From: Pseudomonas fluorescens
GTDB lineage: Bacteria > Pseudomonadota > Gammaproteobacteria > Pseudomonadales > Pseudomonadaceae
Length of the DNA: 64,000 bases
Assembly: GCF_019212185.1 (NCBI RefSeq)
Contig: NZ_CP078138.1
Coordinates: 3,330,501-3,394,500 of the forward strand
Direction of reading: 5' to 3'
Shown: in pieces, positions 54,426 to 64,000 of the stretch
Layout: the number at the start of each line of letters is the position of its first letter
Position numbering within the stretch: position 1 is the first letter of the stretch
Program-made: the position numbers and the translations under genes
The notes under the pieces: model-generated
Seen by the model: the letters and a program-made list of their open reading frames with translations, nothing else
Databases searched by the model: none
What the model was told of the DNA's origin: nothing

Positions 54426-56522
54426 TCAGAAGCCGCTCTCGCGCATGAACACCGCCGCCAGGTGAGTGGCACCGTCGGCCAACAGGCTGCGCCGTTCGCC
54501 TTCGATCTTCAGATGCCCCCGAGTTTCGCGCAGGCTCGGCAAGGGCTCATCCAGTTGAACCAACACCTGGAACAGCGCGCTGCCCGGCACCAGCGCGTGC
54601 TCGGCGTCGGTGGTCACCACCGGGCCACCGAAACGCGACGACAGCATGCGATGGGACAGTTGCCCGGCGCGGGTGCTGCCGATCTGCAGGACGTGACCGC
54701 GCAGCGGACTGGCCTGGCCGTCCGGGTAGAAGCGCACCGGGTCACCGACCGCCATACGATGGACCTGGTCTTGCGCGACATAGGCATCGACCTGCCAGCT
54801 GCGCGGGTCGATCAGGATCCCCAGCGGCTCCTGGCGACCGATCCACTGGCCGGGTTTCCAGTCTGGATTGACGTCCATCCAGATTCCGGCAAACGGCGTT
54901 TGCAGGTTCAGCCGAGCCATCTCCGAACGAGCGGCGCGAGCCTCTTCGAATTGCACGTTGAGGCGCTGGCGGGTCACCGCATCCTCGGCCAGACCACCGG
55001 GATCGGCCAACAACCCCGATAACCGCGCCGCATAGCTGCGGGCATTGGCTTCGCTGCTGCGCAGGCGCGAGGCGATGTCCGGCTCGTCGAGTATCACCAG
55101 ATTCTCCCCGGCCTGGACCGGGCCGCCCGTGCGGATCGACTGCAACCGGGCCGGGTAGGGTGCATAGACCCGCAGTTGCTGCTCAGCGCGGGCGACGCCC
55201 ACCCCATCGATCTGGCTATGCCAGGGAATCGCCAAAACCCCGAGCAGCAGTATCAGCGCTGCGTAGAACAGCAGCTTGCGTTTACCCGGCACGGCGGCGC
55301 GTTGTTGCCACCAGTGCTTCAACTCGCGCAGCACCGGCATGGCGATAAACCAGGACAGTTCGACCATGAACAGGATGATCCCCAGCAGTTTGAAAAAGAA
55401 CAGGTACACCGCCAGGGCGATCCCGAGGAACAGCACCAGCCGGTATAGCCAGGTGACGATGGCAAAAGCCACCAGCAGCCGGCGTTGTCGTGGCGGGAAG
55501 GCCTCCGGCCAGGCTTCCTGCAAGCCCAACAGATTGCGCCGCAGAGTGACCCGAGCCAGCGCCGACGAGCGTTCATGCAGGTTGGGAAAATCCAGCAGGT
55601 CGGAGAGGATGAAGTAACCGTCGAAGCGCATGAACGGACTGGCATTCAGCGCCAGCGACAGCAGCCAACTGGTGGTCGCCAGATACAGCAGGGCATTGCG
55701 CAGCGCGCCAGGATCACAGAGTGCCCAGCCCAGTGTGGAGAGTCCGGCCAGCGACAGCTCGGTGATGATCCCCGCCGAAGCAATCGCCAGGCGTTGGCGT
55801 GAGCGGCTGAGCTTCCAGCTTTCGCCGGTGTCGGTGTAGAGCATTGGCCACAGCACCACGAAGGCAATGCCCATGTGCCCGACACGCAATCCCAGTCGGG
55901 TCGCCACCAACGCGTGCCCCAGTTCATGAAGGGTCTTGGCGACGATCAGCGCCAAGGCAAAACTCAACAGGCCCTCGGTGGAAAATGACTCGACCACGGC
56001 ATGGGTGAACACGTCCCACTGCTGCAGCACGAGGATGATCCCCAGCAGGCTCAGGCCGAGCACCAATAGCCCGGTCAGCGGGTGAAACAACCAGCCCAGG
56101 GCGCGAGCCAAGTGCTGCAACGGCTGTTGCGGACGCAGCAGCGGAATGCGGAAAAACAGGTAATGGTGCAGCCACCAGCGCCAGCTCAACCAACTGCCTT
56201 CTTCGCCTTTGGCTTGCAATTTCGCCAGGGCGGCAGGACCGGCCCGCAGCAACTGGTGCTGCTCGAGAAATTGGCGGAAGTCGAGGACCTGTTCAACGTC
56301 CGGCTTGAGCGCGGTGCCTTCGCCGATCTGCTGGCTAATCTGCCGGGGCGATTGACCCCAGCGCAGCAGGCATTCGAACTCCAGCCAACCGATGCGGTAG
56401 AAGCGATTGATCACCGTGTCCTGGATCACCCAGGCCGGTTCGCCATTGCTGCCATGGGCGGCTTCGCTCAGGCGCAGGTCCTCGCGCAACGGTGGCACCG
56501 GCAGATCGGCGGGATCGAGCAT
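54426..56522 (-). CDS. Polytopic M50 (site-2-protease-like) metalloprotease fused to an HlyD-type domain
   Basis: A 698-residue hybrid. Residues 1-100 resemble a PqqD-type domain (PAWVIQDTVINRFYRIGWLEFECLLRWG). Several helices then surround the zinc motif HELGHAL (about 199-205), with the second M50 motif FMRFDGYFILSDLLDFPNL (Asp ligand) around 300. More helices follow (about 355-440), and then a periplasmic HlyD/biotinyl-lipoyl-like part with a barrel-sandwich split by a helical hairpin (about 450-690). Such proteins are unlike normal exporters because they carry no ATPase. It is last in the operon adhesin-tolC-hlyD-hlyD2-M50. The start is taken as the ATG at 56522, which overlaps the stop before it by one base; TTG and GTG lie just upstream. 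Confidence 0.85.
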   Translation of the reverse strand: MLDPADLPVPPLREDLRLSEAAHGSNGEPAWVIQDTVINRFYRIGWLEFECLLRWGQSPRQISQQIGEGTALKPDVEQVLDFRQFLEQHQLLRAGPAALAKLQAKGEEGSWLSWRWWLHHYLFFRIPLLRPQQPLQHLARALGWLFHPLTGLLVLGLSLLGIILVLQQWDVFTHAVVESFSTEGLLSFALALIVAKTLHELGHALVATRLGLRVGHMGIAFVVLWPMLYTDTGESWKLSRSRQRLAIASAGIITELSLAGLSTLGWALCDPGALRNALLYLATTSWLLSLALNASPFMRFDGYFILSDLLDFPNLHERSSALARVTLRRNLLGLQEAWPEAFPPRQRRLLVAFAIVTWLYRLVLFLGIALAVYLFFFKLLGIILFMVELSWFIAMPVLRELKHWWQQRAAVPGKRKLLFYAALILLLGVLAIPWHSQIDGVGVARAEQQLRVYAPYPARLQSIRTGGPVQAGENLVILDEPDIASRLRSSEANARSYAARLSGLLADPGGLAEDAVTRQRLNVQFEEARAARSEMARLNLQTPFAGIWMDVNPDWKPGQWIGRQEPLGILIDPRSWQVDAYVAQDQVHRMAVGDPVRFYPDGQASPLRGHVLQIGSTRAGQLSHRMLSSRFGGPVVTTDAEHALVPGSALFQVLVQLDEPLPSLRETRGHLKIEGERRSLLADGATHLAAVFMRESGF

Positions 56523-57865
56523 CACCAACCGCTCCAGGCGCGCAGCGTCGCCAGTGGCCGACGCAGCAGGTAATAGCCGAGCATCACCCGGCCGCCATAC
56601 AGCTTGGCGGTGCCGTGCAAGCCGAGACGCGCGTGTTCCGGCGTGCCGTCGATGCTTGCCAGCAAACGGTAGGCGACCACGCCCTCATCGCTGGGCCGGG
56701 CCTGGTAGCTGGTCTCAAGGATTGTGCCCTTGAGCGGGCTCAATGGATACGCGGTGAGAAACAGCGTGACCTCGGCCCCGGGTTCGAGGGCGATGGCATC
56801 GGCCACCGCCAACTGGATTTGCATCGCCGGCTGGCTCGGGTCAGCCACCTGCATGATGCGCTCGCCGGTGACCACCGGCTTGCCCAGCCAGTCGTTGGGG
56901 TCGCTGAATACGGCGACCCCGGCACGCGGCGCCACGACCTGGGTGCGCTTGAGCTGCGCCTGCACCGCCGCCAGTTCGGCCCGGCGTTGCTGGACACGGC
57001 CCTGGAGCAGGGTCAGTTCGCTTTTGCTTTGCGGGTTGTCAAAGGCGCGCTGGCTGGCGGCGAGCAGTTCGGCGTCGGCCACCGCGACTTCCTTGCCGAG
57101 CACTTCGGCGCGGCTGCGCAAAGTGGTTTCGTCGAGGGAGAACAGCGGCGTGCCGAGTTCCACCGGCTGGTTGGGGCGGACTTTGATCTGTTCGATGACG
57201 CCGTCGATGGGCGAGCTGATGATCTGCGCCTGACGGGAGACGATTTCGGTCGGCGCCAAGGCGGTTTGCCGCACAGGCAGAAACAGCAGCGCGCCAAACA
57301 GCAGCAGGGTCACGAGCGCCTGTCGGCGACTGGGGCGCCAGCGACTCAGGCGACGTTGACGAGTCAGCGCCGCCCAGCAGTAACCCCAGGTCCCCACCAG
57401 GCCCTTGAGGTGCTGCCACAACACGGGCGGCGGTTCGCGGTCGAGCAACAACAGCAACAGCCCCAGGCGCTGACCCTGCTGATTGGCAATCGGAATGCAC
57501 CACAGGCCGGTCGGCCACCACTCACTCCAGCCGTCGCTGATGTCCGCCGGCGGGGCCTTGCTGTCCTGGGTCAACCACAGCGGCTCCTCCATCACCTGAG
57601 CAGCAACCCAGCGGCTGGCCCGGCGCAGCCAGACCAGGTAGGGCGAGTCCTCGCTGGGCCGCGACAGCCCGGAAACGTTAAGCAGTTCCAGCGACCTGTC
57701 ACGCTCGGCGAACACCAGCGCCTGATGGAATTTGAGCAACGGGTACAGGTCATTGGCCATGCTGAACGCCAGCGCATTCAGGGTATCAGCGGCCAGCGCC
57801 TTGTCCCGCAGGGCATCAAGCTCGAGCAGCAGGTGAGGGTGGGGTAACGACTCGTTCATGGTCAT
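56522..57865 (-). CDS. Membrane-anchored HlyD-type adaptor with cytosolic GAF-like domain
   Basis: A 447-residue protein. Residues 1-180 have a cytosolic GAF-like character (LNALAFSMANDLYPLLKFHQALVFAERDRSLELLNVSG; WPTGLWCIPIANQQGQRLGLLLLLLDR). One transmembrane helix follows (about 190-206, ALVTLLLFGALLFLP), and the remainder is a periplasmic adaptor of the HlyD/MFP type: IISSPIDGVIEQIKVRPNQPVELGTPLFSLDE is the lipoyl half-motif, then a helical hairpin of about 60 residues, VVAPRAGVAVF the second half, and beta-barrel. The ATG at 57865 overlaps the preceding stop (ATGA). A cytosolic sensor fused to an adaptor is unusual. Confidence 0.82.
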   Translation of the reverse strand: MTMNESLPHPHLLLELDALRDKALAADTLNALAFSMANDLYPLLKFHQALVFAERDRSLELLNVSGLSRPSEDSPYLVWLRRASRWVAAQVMEEPLWLTQDSKAPPADISDGWSEWWPTGLWCIPIANQQGQRLGLLLLLLDREPPPVLWQHLKGLVGTWGYCWAALTRQRRLSRWRPSRRQALVTLLLFGALLFLPVRQTALAPTEIVSRQAQIISSPIDGVIEQIKVRPNQPVELGTPLFSLDETTLRSRAEVLGKEVAVADAELLAASQRAFDNPQSKSELTLLQGRVQQRRAELAAVQAQLKRTQVVAPRAGVAVFSDPNDWLGKPVVTGERIMQVADPSQPAMQIQLAVADAIALEPGAEVTLFLTAYPLSPLKGTILETSYQARPSDEGVVAYRLLASIDGTPEHARLGLHGTAKLYGGRVMLGYYLLRRPLATLRAWSGW

Positions 57866-58644
57866 GGCTGGGAACTGTCGTGCTGGGCCGTTTCCTCGGT
57901 GAAGCGCGCGGTGCCGCTCATGCCGGCCATCAGTTCCGGGTATTTGTTGTCGAGGCGCGCTTCCAGCTCGACGGTTTGCGCCACCGCATCGACCCGCGAG
58001 TTGATCGCGCTGATTGTGGCCGTATAGCTCTTGCCGGTCTCATGGATGTTGACCTGTAACGGCAGGCCGGGCTTGAGGGTTTTCAGCAGGGTCGACGGCA
58101 CATTCAAGCGCACCTTCAGTGCGCCGTCGCTGACCAGGTCGAACAGCGGCGTACCCGCGGTGACGGTCTGGAAGGGTTTGACGTAGACCTTGGCGATGCG
58201 CCCGGAAAACGGCGCCAGCACCTGGCAGTAACCGCTCTGGGCCTGGCCCATCGCGCGGGCGCCGTCGGCCTTTTGCACTTCGGTGTTGGCCATCGACACT
58301 TCAATGTCGCCCACAGCATTGAGTTTGCGCAGTTGCTTCTTGGCTTCCAGATTCTGCCGGGCCATGGTCAGCTCGGCGGCGGCGACCTTGCTGCGGGCGT
58401 CGGCTTCGCTGCAGTTGAAACGGGCCAGTAATTCGGCCTTCTTGACCTGCTCGCCAAACCCGGCCGGCAACTCCGCCAAGGTGCCGCTCATCTGGCTGGA
58501 CAGGGTGGTTTCCAGTTCGGCGGCCAGCAACACGCGAATGGCGCTGGCGCTTTCCGGCGCGGGTGTGTCGTCGGCATGCACCGACAACAGTGGACAGACC
58601 AACAACAGAGCCCCGGCGAGGGACTCAAGGGCGGTTTTGCGCAT
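57862..58644 (-). CDS. HlyD/RND-type periplasmic adaptor protein
   Basis: A 260-residue adaptor with a signal peptide (MRKTALESLAGALLLVCPLLSVHADD, about 25 residues). Lipoyl-type segments (MSGTLAELPAGFGEQVKKAELLARF and VLAPFSGRIAKVYVKPFQTVTAGTPLFDLV) flank a helical hairpin of about 60 residues, and a C-terminal beta-barrel (SRVDAVAQTVELEARLDNKYPELMAGMSG) follows. The ATG at 58644 has AGGA in front, and its 5' end overlaps tolC by 20 bases. It would bridge the inner-membrane part to the TolC-like channel. Confidence 0.88.
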   Translation of the reverse strand: MRKTALESLAGALLLVCPLLSVHADDTPAPESASAIRVLLAAELETTLSSQMSGTLAELPAGFGEQVKKAELLARFNCSEADARSKVAAAELTMARQNLEAKKQLRKLNAVGDIEVSMANTEVQKADGARAMGQAQSGYCQVLAPFSGRIAKVYVKPFQTVTAGTPLFDLVSDGALKVRLNVPSTLLKTLKPGLPLQVNIHETGKSYTATISAINSRVDAVAQTVELEARLDNKYPELMAGMSGTARFTEETAQHDSSQP

Positions 58645-60160
58645 TCGACGTTCCTTGCTGGGTGATGAGCAGGCGTTGCTGCTCCTGTTCATTCAATGTG
58701 CGCTGGATTTCCCGGGACAGGGTCTTGATGTCGTGCTTGTCGATTTCGCTCGGCAGCACGTCCAGGCCAATCGAGTTATACAGCCGGCCCCAGGCCGCCT
58801 GGGCACTGGAGAACGCCGCCTCGCGCTGGTAACGCGAAAGCAGGTAACGGCCTTCGGAACGAATCACCTCCAGTTCCGAACCCAGGGCGCCAGTTTTCGC
58901 CGCCTGGGCGTAGTCGAGCAGGCTGCGGTCGACCCGCAGGCTTTCCTCGGTGAACTCGACCTCCTGACGCGCCAACTGATAACGCAGGGTGCCGACCCGC
59001 ACCTGAGTCAGGATCGCCATCGACAGCGCGACACGCCGGGTATCGTCGGTCTCGCTCTGGGACTGTTGCGCGGCGTTGAGGGACGGCAATTGCAGCAGGC
59101 GCAGCAGGTTCATCGACACCTGCACGCCGGTGTTCATCCAGTCGCTGTTGTACAGGTACTTGTTGGAATCATAGCGATAACCGAAGTCCACGCTGACGTT
59201 GGGCCAGAGTTGCGCCTTGGCAATGTCCAGGTCTTTCTGGTTAACCCGTTTGCGGTACCACTCTTCCATGATTTCCGGACGGTGCTCCAACGACAGCTGT
59301 TCGAGCTGAGCCATGCTCTGCCGGACCTCCGGCAGGCGCGGATCCGTGGTGTCGGCGAGGACCATCTTCGAGCCCGGCGGCAGCGACATCAGGGCTGCCA
59401 GTTCGGCCTGGGCGAATTCCAGATCCTGGCGACGCACGGTCAGCAGGTAGATCGAATCAAGCAGGGCCCGCTGGTAGGCGAGAATTTCCTGCTGCGGCAA
59501 CAGGCCCCGTTGCTCGGCCTCGCGGGCTGAGGTCAGTGCGGTGTGGGTGCGCATCAGCAGCTTGTCGACTTCCGGCATCAGCCGTTGCGCGCCCAGGGCC
59601 CGCCAGTAAGCATTGCGCACGTCCTGCAAGACGTTCTGCGCGACTTTGCGCCGGCGCTCTTCGGCCATCAGGATCTGGTCGGATTTCTGCTGGGTACGGT
59701 AGTAGGCCACGCCGAAGTCCAGCAGGCTCCAGCTCAGGCCCAGTCCATAGAGCTGGCGATAACGCTCTTCGGAGGTCGAGGGCCGCAAGCTGACTTGGCG
59801 GTCTTCGATGCCGATCGAGGTACCGCCGGAGTCATTGTTGCGCCCGGCGTAACCGGCCGAGGCCACCAGTCGCGGGAGCATTTCGTGGCTGGAGACGTCG
59901 CGCAAGTCCGAGGCCAGGGCGCTTTCCATCAGTTTCAAGCGGTAGTCGAGGTTGTATTTCAGGGCCCGGGCGGCCGCATCGTAGAAGGTCAGGGGCGCGG
60001 TCACCGGTTCCTGGGCGGAATACATGCGCGACTGGTCGGCAAGAATGCGTTGACGGTTTTCCTCCTCGGTACTCGGCTTGGGCTCCAGTGAAGAACAGGC
60101 ACTGAGCAGCAGGGTCGAGACGAGGGCGCTACTGAGAATCCGATGGGCATTTTTCTGCAT
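58625..60160 (-). CDS. TolC-family outer-membrane lipoprotein
   Basis: A 511-residue outer-membrane efflux/secretion channel with a lipoprotein signal (MQKNAHRILSSALVSTLLLSAC; lipobox LLSAC, Cys about 22). Two OEP repeats of long helices are visible (LTFYDAAARALKYNLDYRLKLMES... and VALSMAILTQVRVGTLRYQLARQ...). The ATG at 60160 follows AAAGGA six bases upstream, so it is preferred to one at 60166. It starts 43 bases after the VCBS adhesin gene and is followed by both adaptors, making one operon. Confidence 0.92.
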   Translation of the reverse strand: MQKNAHRILSSALVSTLLLSACSSLEPKPSTEEENRQRILADQSRMYSAQEPVTAPLTFYDAAARALKYNLDYRLKLMESALASDLRDVSSHEMLPRLVASAGYAGRNNDSGGTSIGIEDRQVSLRPSTSEERYRQLYGLGLSWSLLDFGVAYYRTQQKSDQILMAEERRRKVAQNVLQDVRNAYWRALGAQRLMPEVDKLLMRTHTALTSAREAEQRGLLPQQEILAYQRALLDSIYLLTVRRQDLEFAQAELAALMSLPPGSKMVLADTTDPRLPEVRQSMAQLEQLSLEHRPEIMEEWYRKRVNQKDLDIAKAQLWPNVSVDFGYRYDSNKYLYNSDWMNTGVQVSMNLLRLLQLPSLNAAQQSQSETDDTRRVALSMAILTQVRVGTLRYQLARQEVEFTEESLRVDRSLLDYAQAAKTGALGSELEVIRSEGRYLLSRYQREAAFSSAQAAWGRLYNSIGLDVLPSEIDKHDIKTLSREIQRTLNEQEQQRLLITQQGTSNAQNRP

Positions 60161-60203
60161 GTGCATTCCTTTGTGTGCTTGGAAAATGGTGGGCCAGTTC
60201 ACG

Positions 60204-63200
60204 TCAGTTGCCCTTATTGGTCGGGTGCAGGCGCTGGCCGGCGTTGCGCAGTTGCGCGCTGAAGCCGCGTCCCTGCTGCTGTTCGTGGCGGGCCTCGACC
60301 TGCGCCGAGCCACGCAGCATGTCCGGTGCACCATTGGCAAACAGCGACGGGTCGCCGAGCAAGCCGTCGGCGGTCAGATCGGTGCGGCCCTGGCGACCGA
60401 GGATCCACAGCAGGTCGAGCTCGCTTTCGATGCGGCTTTCGCGTACCGCTGCGGCGACGAACTGACCGGGCACCACGCCCAGGCCATCGCCCAGCGAGTC
60501 GCTGCGCAGTTCGCCGGTCAAGACCAGCGCCATGTTGCTGCCGCCGGTATCCCAGGAGGAGAGTTCATTGAGCCGGGCATTTCGCTCGACCACCGGGGTG
60601 ATGAACACCGCCGGCTGCGGGTCGGGGGGCAGCAGGTTGCGGTTCTGGTTGTTCGGGTCCCGGGCGAAGACATTGATGGCCGGTGCCGGTATGAAGGGTG
60701 TGGCGATGTCCAGGGTGATCTGCAGTTCAGCCTGGTCGCTGGCACCGCTGAGGTCATTGACGGTGTAGGTGAACACGTCCTGCAGGACCTGGCCGAGACC
60801 GGCAGCGGCAAGAACCTGCGGGTTGCTCTGGTCGATGGTGTAGGTGTAGCTGCCATCGGCATTGAGCACCAGGGTGCCGTAGAGCCCTGCAATCGGCTGG
60901 CCGATCACCCCGGCAGTGCCGCTGCCAGACTCGGCGCCGCTGCGCACCGCAACCACGTGCAGGCGGTCGTTGCCGTCGACGTCGCCATCGTTGGGCAGTA
61001 CGTTGCCGGTGGCTTGCGGCGCGGGCGTCTGGTCGCTGGCGGTGTTGCTGTCGTTCTGCGCTACCGGGGCATCGTTGGCACCCTGGATGACCACCGTCAG
61101 CCGTGCATCGGCGGTAGCCCCGGCCGTGTCGCGCATGCGGTAGGTGAAGGTTTCGCTGAGGGTTTCGCCGGCGGTGCGCAATGCCTGCACGGTGGGATTG
61201 CTGTTGTCGATCAGGTAGCTGTAGCTGCCATCGGCATTCAGGGTCAATTGGCCGTAACGGCCGATCAGCACCTGGCCGGCCGCGGCGGACTGGCCGGTTT
61301 CGCTGCTGACCTGCAGCACCTGCTTGCTCTCGCCATTGGCCACGCTATCGACATCGCTGTCGTTGCTCAGCACATTGCCGATGCCGTTGCTGCCGGGGGT
61401 GCCGTTGGCCACGCCGCCGGCTTCGACGGCGATGGTGCCGTCGTCCACGGCGACCGGGGTGTCGTTGCGGCCGTCGACAGTGATCTGCAACTGTGCCTGG
61501 CTGGTGGCACCAAAGATGTCGACCACCGTGTAGCTGAACACTTCGCTGAGGGTCTGGCCGCTTTGGCGCAAGGCTTGTACGACCGCGAGGCTGTTATCAA
61601 CGGTATAGGTGTAGCTGCCGTCGGCATTGATCAGCAGGTCGCCATATTGCCCGCGCAGTGGCGTGCCCAGGCTGCCGACGGTGCCGATGTCGGTAATGGG
61701 ACCGGTATGGATGCCGATCAAGTGCAGGGCGTCGTTCTCGTTATCGCGGTCGTTGTCCAGTACGTTGCCGCTCGGGTCGATACCGGGCTGGCTGTTGTCG
61801 ATTCCACCGGCCTCGATCGCGGTGGCGGCATCGTCGGCGGGAATCGGCGCGGTGTTGCGGCCACGGATGATGATATGGATTTCGGCCAGATCGTTCTGCC
61901 CACCACGGTCGGTCACCTGGTAGGTGAAGTGTTCGTCGAGGAACTGCAGCGGCCCCAACGCCAGTACCGTTGGATTGAGGGAGTCGAGGTCATAGGTGTA
62001 GTTGCCGTCGGCACCGATGATCAATTGCCCGTAGAGCCCATTGACCAGAGTGCCATTGCTGTTGTCTGTGCCTGAATTTACGCCTGCCAGGCTGCCGCCC
62101 GCCGTTTCAGTGCCGAAACGAATGCCGGTGACCAGCAAGCTGTCACCCTGGTCGACATCGGTGTCATTGGGCAAGACATTGCGCGTCGGGTTGACCCCGT
62201 TGCCGGAACCGTCATCGGCCACCGCCAGGGCGAGGTCGTTGTTCGCCACCGGGGCATCCCAGGCGCCGTCGATGCGGATGCTCAGCTGCGCGTCGTCGGT
62301 GGCGCCGGCGGTGTCACGCATGCGGTAGGTAAAGGTTTCTACCAGGGTGTCGCCGACTTTCAGTGCCTGCACGGCGGCCAGGTTGTTGTTGACGACGTAG
62401 CTGTAAGTGCCGTCGGCATTGATTGTCAGGGTGCCGTACAGGCCTGTGAGGCTGTGGCTGATGCCAACCGTGTCGAACGCACCACCGGCAGTTTCCGAAC
62501 CGCTACGAATATCAGTCACCTGCTTGCCGTCGCCGGCATCGACGTCGGTGTCGTTGCCCAGTACATTGCCGGAGGGATCGAGCCCCGGTGTGCCATTGAA
62601 GGTGCCGCCGGCTTCGACGGCGACGGTGCTGTCGTCGACGGCCACCGGGTTGTCGTTGGCCCCTCGAATGGTGATGGTCAGGGTCGCGGTGCTGGTAGCG
62701 CCGGCAAGATCGAGAATGCGGTAGGTGAAGGTTTCCGTCAGGGTATCGGCGTTGGTGCGCAGGGCCTGCACTTGCGGGTTGTTATTGTCGACCACGTAGC
62801 TGTAATTGCCGTCGGCCTCCAGGGTCAGGGTACCGAACGCGCCGGCGAAAGCAGTGCCGATCACGCCTACCGACGCGCCCTGGTTGAGCTCGACCACCGT
62901 CAGGACTTCGCCGTTGCCGTCGACGTCGCTGTCGTTGGCCAGCACGTTGCCGCCGGGGTTGACGCCGGGGCTGGCGTTGGCCTGACCGCCGGCCTCGATG
63001 GCGGTGGCACTGTCGTTCTGTGCAATCGGCGTGTCATTGCGCCCTTGAATACTGATGTTCAGTGTCGCGACATCGGTGGCGCCACTGGCGTCGATCACCG
63101 TGTAGTTGAAGGCATCGGCCAGGCTGTCGCCGGCGCGCAGTGCCTGGACTTCAGCCATGGCGTTGTCGAGGCGATAGCTGTAGCTGCCGTCAGCATTCAA

Positions 63201-64000
63201 GGTCAGCCAGCCATAGGTGCCGCGCAGTTCACTGCCCAGGGTTCCGGTGGTGCCGGCGCTGTTTTCGATGCCGGTGCGCACCGAATCAACGGCGCGGGTT
63301 TCGCCATAGTCGTGAGCGGGCAGGTCGCTCGGCACTTCGCCGCCGTCGACGTCGGTGTCGTTGGTCAGCACATTACCGACCGGGTCGACCCCCGGCTGGT
63401 TGTTGTTCAAACCGCCGGCTTCGATGGCCGTCGCACTGTCGTCGGTGGCGATCGGGTTGTCGTTCTGGCCGCGAATCAGCACGAAGATATTGGCAGTATC
63501 GGTTTCCGGAGTTGGCCCGACTTCATCGCTGATGGTGAAGATAAAACGTTCCAGCAGCAGATCGCCGCCGGTGCGCAAGGCTTCCACATCGGCATTGCTG
63601 TTATCGACTTCGTAGGTGTAGCTGCCGTCGGGGAAGATAGTCAGCCGGCCATACAGACCCGTGACGGTGGTACCGGCCGCGACGACCGCTACAGGCGTCC
63701 CTCCGTCGAACTGGATGAAGGTCACATTCAACGGGTCGCCGTCCGGGTCGATGGAATTGAGCATGGCATCGCCCGAGGGATCGACGCCTGCCGTGCCGTT
63801 GGCCACTCCACCTTTTTCCGTGGCAATCGCCACGACGTTCTGCGCCACCGGCGGGTCGTTGACCCCATGCACGGTGATCACCAACTGCGCAGTGTCAGTC
63901 AGGCCGTTGGTGTCGGTGATCTGGTAGGTAAAGAACTCGGTCAGGGTTTGCCCGGCCGAGAGTGCCTGTACATCGGCATTGGTGCTGTCGACATCGTAGA
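60204..64000 (-). CDS. Giant VCBS-repeat surface protein (C-terminal part, cut by window edge)
   Basis: The reading frame runs off the window, so only the last ~1265 residues are visible; the N-terminus and length are unknown. Eight full VCBS-type (cadherin/bacterial-Ig-like) repeats of about 125-140 residues are seen, plus the end of another at the edge. Each has NDxPVAxDDS...EAGG...GNVLxNDxDVD, then GxYGxLTLNADGSYxYxxDN, then TLxExFTYRxxDxxGA. The repeat near 62.2 kb lacks EAGG, and the last before the C-terminus is shortened. The ~150 residues after the last repeat end in NAGQRLHPTNKGN and have no RTX nonapeptides. Secretion is presumably by the TolC/HlyD/M50 set directly downstream. Likely an adhesin, with the DNA repeats prone to recombination. 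Confidence 0.88.
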   Translation of the reverse strand, partial: YDVDSTNADVQALSAGQTLTEFFTYQITDTNGLTDTAQLVITVHGVNDPPVAQNVVAIATEKGGVANGTAGVDPSGDAMLNSIDPDGDPLNVTFIQFDGGTPVAVVAAGTTVTGLYGRLTIFPDGSYTYEVDNSNADVEALRTGGDLLLERFIFTISDEVGPTPETDTANIFVLIRGQNDNPIATDDSATAIEAGGLNNNQPGVDPVGNVLTNDTDVDGGEVPSDLPAHDYGETRAVDSVRTGIENSAGTTGTLGSELRGTYGWLTLNADGSYSYRLDNAMAEVQALRAGDSLADAFNYTVIDASGATDVATLNISIQGRNDTPIAQNDSATAIEAGGQANASPGVNPGGNVLANDSDVDGNGEVLTVVELNQGASVGVIGTAFAGAFGTLTLEADGNYSYVVDNNNPQVQALRTNADTLTETFTYRILDLAGATSTATLTITIRGANDNPVAVDDSTVAVEAGGTFNGTPGLDPSGNVLGNDTDVDAGDGKQVTDIRSGSETAGGAFDTVGISHSLTGLYGTLTINADGTYSYVVNNNLAAVQALKVGDTLVETFTYRMRDTAGATDDAQLSIRIDGAWDAPVANNDLALAVADDGSGNGVNPTRNVLPNDTDVDQGDSLLVTGIRFGTETAGGSLAGVNSGTDNSNGTLVNGLYGQLIIGADGNYTYDLDSLNPTVLALGPLQFLDEHFTYQVTDRGGQNDLAEIHIIIRGRNTAPIPADDAATAIEAGGIDNSQPGIDPSGNVLDNDRDNENDALHLIGIHTGPITDIGTVGSLGTPLRGQYGDLLINADGSYTYTVDNSLAVVQALRQSGQTLSEVFSYTVVDIFGATSQAQLQITVDGRNDTPVAVDDGTIAVEAGGVANGTPGSNGIGNVLSNDSDVDSVANGESKQVLQVSSETGQSAAAGQVLIGRYGQLTLNADGSYSYLIDNSNPTVQALRTAGETLSETFTYRMRDTAGATADARLTVVIQGANDAPVAQNDSNTASDQTPAPQATGNVLPNDGDVDGNDRLHVVAVRSGAESGSGTAGVIGQPIAGLYGTLVLNADGSYTYTIDQSNPQVLAAAGLGQVLQDVFTYTVNDLSGASDQAELQITLDIATPFIPAPAINVFARDPNNQNRNLLPPDPQPAVFITPVVERNARLNELSSWDTGGSNMALVLTGELRSDSLGDGLGVVPGQFVAAAVRESRIESELDLLWILGRQGRTDLTADGLLGDPSLFANGAPDMLRGSAQVEARHEQQQGRGFSAQLRNAGQRLHPTNKGN

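Follow-up and report, generated by a model that had tools for sequence, protein, structure and literature searches.

We analysed a locus at the end of a 64,000 nt stretch of Pseudomonas fluorescens DNA (contig NZ_CP078138.1, positions 3,330,501 to 3,394,500; hereafter the window), taken from a genome of 6.34 Mb in one contig. Five genes on the minus strand follow one another in the order VCBS adhesin, TolC-family outer-membrane channel, HlyD adaptor, GAF-like/HlyD adaptor and a hybrid of an M50 membrane protease with an HlyD adaptor. The C-terminal part of the adhesin gene lies at 60204..64000, and the gene runs past the window to 75176 on the same scale. Between the adhesin stop (60204) and the gene for the 511 aa channel (58625..60160) there is a gap of 43 bases, and the next three junctions, leading to the 260 aa HlyD adaptor of RND_mfp type (57862..58644), the 447 aa GAF-like/HlyD adaptor (56522..57865) and the 698 aa hybrid (54426..56522), overlap by 20, 4 and 1 bases. 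An earlier note, made from the letters alone, had described five tightly packed genes, and these coordinates confirm that observation. The channel and adaptors it named were also recovered: the TolC protein, with an N terminus that is lipobox-like by eye, matches Pfam OEP above cut-off, the first adaptor matches TIGR01730 above cut-off, Pfam HlyD is found in both adaptors, and the hybrid contains Pfam M50 and HlyD_3 above cut-off.

Related loci were collected by a scan of species genomes, and the best 80 of more than 590 loci are the set behind all counts out of 80 given below. Loci with a full hybrid like that of the window are called type 1, and weaker hybrid matches (161-302 bits; 19 loci examined) represent a sister type, type 2. 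Profile comparison of type 1 with type 2 gave 100% for the hybrid and 99.8% for the adaptor that bears a GAF domain in the sister family.

The N-terminal domain of the hybrid (residues 8-94; 56241..56501) has a predicted fold resembling the recognition element (RRE) of enzymes acting on ribosomally synthesized and post-translationally modified peptides (RiPPs), and it stands N-terminal to the M50 domain. The AlphaFold2 model of the hybrid has a pLDDT of 80.9. The PqqD-like domain proposed in the earlier note is backed by predicted fold and by homology. Pfam PqqD gave little or no match in type-1 hybrids, a sequence search of the PDB with the N-terminal domain returned 0 matches, and the 50 matches listed by Foldseek with the whole hybrid as query were adaptor proteins. 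The HELGH zinc motif (residues 199-203; 55914..55928) and Asp301 of the RFDGY motif (55620..55622), the third zinc-site residue, are intact; the H, E and H of the former and the Asp are invariant in 20 aligned rows. The combined HExxH...RFDGY pattern is kept in 80/80 related loci. We take Asp301 to be a zinc ligand, as in site-2 proteases. The GAF-like domain claimed for the second adaptor fared less clearly. No Pfam GAF match was obtained at E<=1 in 16/16 type-1 members, yet in alignment this part of the adaptor falls on the GAF region of the sister proteins, and from these sequence comparisons a GAF-like identity is plausible.

The adhesin is 4,990 aa long and begins with MQKSDRPVFAAHLRPQRQALALEPRILFDGAA. 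Its residues 22-32 form the sequence LEPRILFDGAA, here called the tag, which is followed by DUF4347. Pfam content comprises DUF4347 together with 18 Cadherin_4 and 17 Big_9 stretches, and NCBIfam matches include TIGR01965 (VCBS) and NF045619 (BapA/Bap/LapF). No RTX family was found by Pfam at E<=0.01 in the full-length protein, in agreement with the lack of an RTX C-terminus noted earlier, and an RTX/type I secretion system (T1SS) reading of it was rejected. No LapA-type retention module was among the NCBIfam matches at E<=0.1. Long open frames also face the adhesin repeats on the plus strand between 60054 and 64000 (for example 60078-62075, 665 aa); these probably just reflect how biased codon use is in the repeats.

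Near its end the adhesin carries the sequence GFSAQL (residues 4971-4976; 60249..60266). A motif of this class, (S/A/G/T/P)(F/L/M)xxQ(L/V/I/M) within the last 75 residues, occurs in 67/70 type-1 adhesins, which include close relatives and hence are not independent, versus 33/564 control open reading frames (ORFs). The set of 70 was drawn from 83 loci, five of which were excluded by hand (L020-L022, L058, L062), eight more having no closed plus-strand ORF of 900 aa. By eye, the type-1 motif was not seen in type-2 giants.

The set of TolC, HlyD, GAF-like/HlyD and hybrid genes is found together in 75/80 related loci, and an adhesin match is present in 70/80; at L020-L022 and L062 the adhesin is located downstream of the hybrid. 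The closest named loci among these 80 belong to Pseudomonas. Homologous operons with tagged giants are also found on Escherichia coli, Azospirillum and Cupriavidus replicons, and in Niveispirillum. On E. coli IncFIA/IncFIB plasmids (L087/L090; NZ_CP081687.1, 44829-64580) there is a complete type-1 operon with a tagged giant of 4,459 aa. The hybrid gene was found in 24/5,426 complete E. coli genomes, with 21/25 places on plasmids.

Co-occurrence was scored in 397 Pseudomonadota genomes, a full (type-1) hybrid being one above 500 bits. The full hybrid was found in 69 genomes, DUF4347 in 87 and both in 64; DUF4347 is present in 64/69 genomes with a full hybrid versus 23/328 without. Counted by genus, the figures are 34/36 with the hybrid and 18/195 without, and inside the genus of the window they are 8/8 and 0/6. 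The N-termini of 98 DUF4347 proteins from selected, partly hand-picked places were then scored for the tag by one regular expression, which matched 0/788 other ORFs of the loci as a measure of chance. The tag count leaves aside five loci that had duplicate DUF4347 rows, and six (G096, G180, G227, G273, G297, G369) of the 23 genomes in which DUF4347 occurs without a full hybrid. The tag is present in 76/78 DUF4347 proteins from type-1-hybrid genomes, in 3/5 from genomes holding only a divergent hybrid, and in 0/15 from 13 genomes without a detected hybrid, where a divergent one was possibly missed since only the two best candidates per genome were scored. The same scoring undercounts type-2 copies. 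Five genomes hold a hybrid without DUF4347. In three of them (G082, G188, G244) a tagged adhesin adjoins the hybrid, and in G169 the reading frame of the adhesin extends past the end of the stretch. Because tagged adhesins lacking DUF4347 adjoin hybrids, it is the tag, rather than DUF4347, that follows the hybrid.

In G105, 8 DUF4347 matches stand against 2 hybrids (no more than two per genome were scored), counts that would fit one gate serving many substrates. Untagged DUF4347 proteins (L153, L154, L161-L163, L168) show, by eye, Sec-like N termini and hydrophobic C-terminal anchors with basic tails, and the untagged set also includes a C terminus of barrel-like or T1SS-like appearance. DUF4347 seems to be a module that is not bound to one export route, and its untagged carriers appear to use other routes.

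In 17/19 type-2 loci (not L236 and L237) the hybrid has a SecA-family gene directly beside it or overlapping it, three of these 17 SecA-like genes having weak scores, one being a fragment and one lying inside a longer frame. The SecA_DEAD, preprotein-binding and P-loop domains were found in 4/4 of the SecA-like proteins scanned. A single SecA_DEAD match (E<=1e-15) is present in 48/69 type-1 genomes, including that of the window, where it lies far from the operon at C1:5169329 with no adjacent secondary SecA_DEAD gene. Type-2 hybrids keep HExxH and the Asp, with Pfam PqqD above cut-off in 2/5, and the accompanying adaptors match GAF in 5/5, above cut-off in 4. A type-2 hybrid is also present in each of seven additional loci that were picked for their SecA-like gene; these and the other extra type-2 loci were selected by the SecA-like gene (L257-L259 by the hybrid) and were therefore not added to the 17/19. 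LLSG or MLSG tags were found on 7/7 same-contig DUF4347 giants (L194, L198, L206, L247-L250). Two giants with this class of tag, at L194 and L206, have 14,920 and 11,649 codons (G006:C1:2731072 and G014:C29:23633).

Four Alphaproteobacterial plasmids, also chosen by SecA, carry a giant, DUF3467, one or more adaptors, the hybrid and the SecA-like gene. The hybrid is annotated as PqqD family in three of them; in the fourth the putative hybrid is annotated as hypothetical. LEPR-LL tags are present on 4/4 of the plasmid giants, three by regular expression and one (LEPRVLLNAD) by eye, and the type-2 plasmid giants bearing the tag are annotated without DUF4347. One type-2 plasmid giant is named LEPR-XLL by NCBI. 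The small DUF3467 gene separates the giant from the first adaptor in 4/4 type-2 plasmid loci (L260-L263). In the loci examined, tag class and hybrid type match, as a correlation.

A comparable arrangement was reported by Kamneva, Poudel and Ward in 2015 (PMC4452313), who described a secondary SecA_DEAD locus that also encodes M50, HlyD and GAF proteins; they proposed that SecA is the ATPase and the M50 protein a possible pore. As described there, that locus shares with the window an M50-HlyD protein, a GAF-HlyD protein, a further HlyD protein, sometimes an OEP protein, and no ABC (ATP-binding cassette) gene. The M50-HlyD and GAF-HlyD pair is present in the window, with the GAF undetected by Pfam in type 1; unlike the reported locus, the window operon has no SecA gene. 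The main text of PMC4452313 does not mention an adhesin, LEPR, PqqD or Pseudomonas, and its relevant sections name no substrate. The earlier note had called the route undescribed, which does not hold in that wording: because a sister locus with SecA in the place of the motor was reported in 2015, the route is not wholly undescribed. The window operon is a SecA-less variant of this little-studied SecA/M50/HlyD locus, and it is real and conserved.

Other known systems resemble parts of the operon. In the daptide pathway, as the relevant parts of PMC10036551 describe it, a leader with the motif ELExMEAP is removed by the RRE-dependent peptidase MpaP, in which an RRE is fused N-terminally to an intramembrane site-2 protease, as in our hybrid. 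The MpaP family (NF041824) matches hybrid residues 31-395 at 1.6e-45, with 155.9 bits lying below the cut-off of 300. Unlike MpaP as presented in that paper, the window hybrid is fused to HlyD and is partnered by a giant adhesin instead of a short peptide; in the window operon we saw no genes for daptide modification. LapA/LapBCE-type T1SS likewise combine a large repetitive adhesin, to which the NF045619 match of our adhesin relates, with TolC and HlyD, whereas the window operon lacks an ABC gene, and its adhesin has neither an RTX family nor the same kind of N-terminal tag. As a T1SS in general, the operon has the HlyD adaptor and TolC but lacks the ABC transporter and an RTX-type substrate. 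LEPR-XLL proteins (NF012209) carry a short N-terminal LEPR motif on giants as well, but at 12.8 bits the window adhesin stays below the cut-off of 17, and it belongs to the FDGA class rather than the LLS class. A search of open-licence PubMed Central, mostly titles and beginnings of abstracts and so not proof of absence, found no paper joining the LEPR tag or DUF4347 with an M50-HlyD hybrid.

In the cases known, RRE-type domains are found in the cytosol and recognise leader segments that are not folded. As the tag is N-terminal and such domains are cytosolic, the arrangement suggests that the hybrid acts at the inner membrane, either ahead of export or while it proceeds. On balance we favour, with moderate confidence, a dedicated ABC-less route by which giant adhesins cross the envelope, guided by the N-terminal tag and driven by a SecA-family motor. 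The RRE/PqqD-like domain would bind the LExRxxFDGA tag in the way that RiPP enzymes bind leader peptides, and the membrane zinc site would cut at or near it. The chain would then exit through the HlyD domains, including that of the hybrid itself, and TolC; the C-terminal FxxQL motif would be the final part to leave and may keep the adhesin at the surface by anchoring or stalling it. The motor would belong to the SecA family rather than to ABC proteins, being the SecA-like neighbour in type 2 and probably housekeeping SecA in type 1. Operon conservation and the coupling of tag and hybrid are correlations, and the RRE-like predicted fold, the intact zinc site and the SecA-like neighbour in type 2 are comparisons. 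The part of the earlier interpretation in which the M50 unit processes the adhesin gains from this, and the interpretation as a whole is partly supported: a processing role is likely because the tag ties the M50 hybrid to the adhesin.

The alternative that best survives is that a LapB-type T1SS ABC transporter encoded elsewhere powers export in trans, the hybrid only maturing the adhesin and adding an adaptor ring. HlyD and TolC are the classical partners of ABC exporters. An ABC transporter at the other end of the adhesin gene was named in the earlier note as a refuting finding, and this condition was checked. The absence of an ABC ATPase gene, claimed for the window, extends past position 64,000 and to both ends of the operon, a two-motif scan finding no ABC-type ORF within about 18 kb past the adhesin start or 20 kb past the hybrid. 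The genes past the adhesin encode OprD, a major facilitator superfamily (MFS) transporter, a Rieske oxygenase and a reductase, an Asp-Al_Ex permease gene lies past the hybrid, and an ABC-type ORF noticed by eye about 28 kb past the adhesin has the character of an importer. An ORF with ABC motifs was found inside the operon in 0/80 related loci (elsewhere in the stretch in 6/80), which, like the adhesin without an RTX family, speaks against ABC export. LssB-type ABC genes occur above cut-off in 40/69 hybrid genomes. In at least 8/69, a count that sets aside 15 hybrid genomes whose LssB scores are intermediate, none of LssB, PrtD and HlyB exceeds its curated cut-off, and because of these genomes an unlinked T1SS ABC transporter is unlikely as a general motor; G088 (95% complete) has no PrtD or HlyB match even at 1e-40. 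Overall we consider export by an ABC transporter in trans unlikely.

It is also possible, though we think it quite improbable, that the adhesin leaves through Sec or by some other path and that the hybrid acts later, as a LapG-like release or anchoring protease at the envelope. The presence of an intramembrane protease, a hydropathy that allows a signal-like N terminus and the Sec-like N termini seen by eye on some untagged DUF4347 proteins fit such a scheme. The N-terminal position of the tag and the cytosolic location of known RRE-type domains do not, nor does a hybrid that has its own HlyD barrel, sits with TolC and, in type 2, adjoins a SecA-like ATPase. That the tag is merely an inherited part of the DUF4347 family and says nothing of the route is very improbable: few tag changes on the DUF4347 tree (built without two of the 98 proteins, which were too short) are independent and well supported, but the best tree needs 8 changes, the tag also occurs on hybrid neighbours without DUF4347 and on type-2 giants annotated without it, tag class tracks hybrid type in the loci examined, and in G165 one DUF4347 protein on the stretch of the hybrid is tagged and another, unlinked, is untagged.

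Several observations weigh against the dedicated SecA-driven route, alongside the possible missed hybrids mentioned above. A SecA-like gene was found in 0/84 type-1 loci (two being the same plasmid). The genome of the window holds three LssB-type ABC genes above cut-off, all away from the operon, and these leave room for an ABC transporter in trans in this genome. Two DUF4347 proteins in hybrid genomes (L121, L202) are untagged, no tagged giant was seen within 20 kb around either of the two hybrids of G057, and none was seen at the Caballeronia and Indioceanicola plasmid loci (L257, L258), at which the C-terminal motif was seen. Well-supported independent tag changes amount to two pairs on starred branches of the tree, both concordant in most of 200 pairings; with just two pairs, the independent-pair test cannot reach significance. 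Hydropathy did not separate tagged from untagged N-termini, which leaves room for a Sec-like role of the tag.

More tentatively, the dedicated route could be a secretion system of its own kind. An intramembrane protease with leader binding of RiPP type and an HlyD collar of its own would serve as inner-membrane gate for LEPR-tagged giants of about 2,000-15,000 residues, with push from a SecA-family motor and release through TolC; tag and gate would have diverged together (FDGA without SecA, LLS with SecA), and one gate would serve several unlinked tagged proteins.

For a class of loci with TolC and HlyD, the present analysis offers a substrate and a targeting signal, neither of which is named in the literature found, and a possible working mode for a TolC/HlyD set without an ABC pump. 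The N-terminal tag and, in type 1, the C-terminal motif now provide testable signals, so that the substrates secreted by these loci, long in question, can be approached by mutation of one short tag. Recognition of a leader, familiar from small RiPP peptides, may also be a means of sorting some of the very largest proteins that bacteria make.

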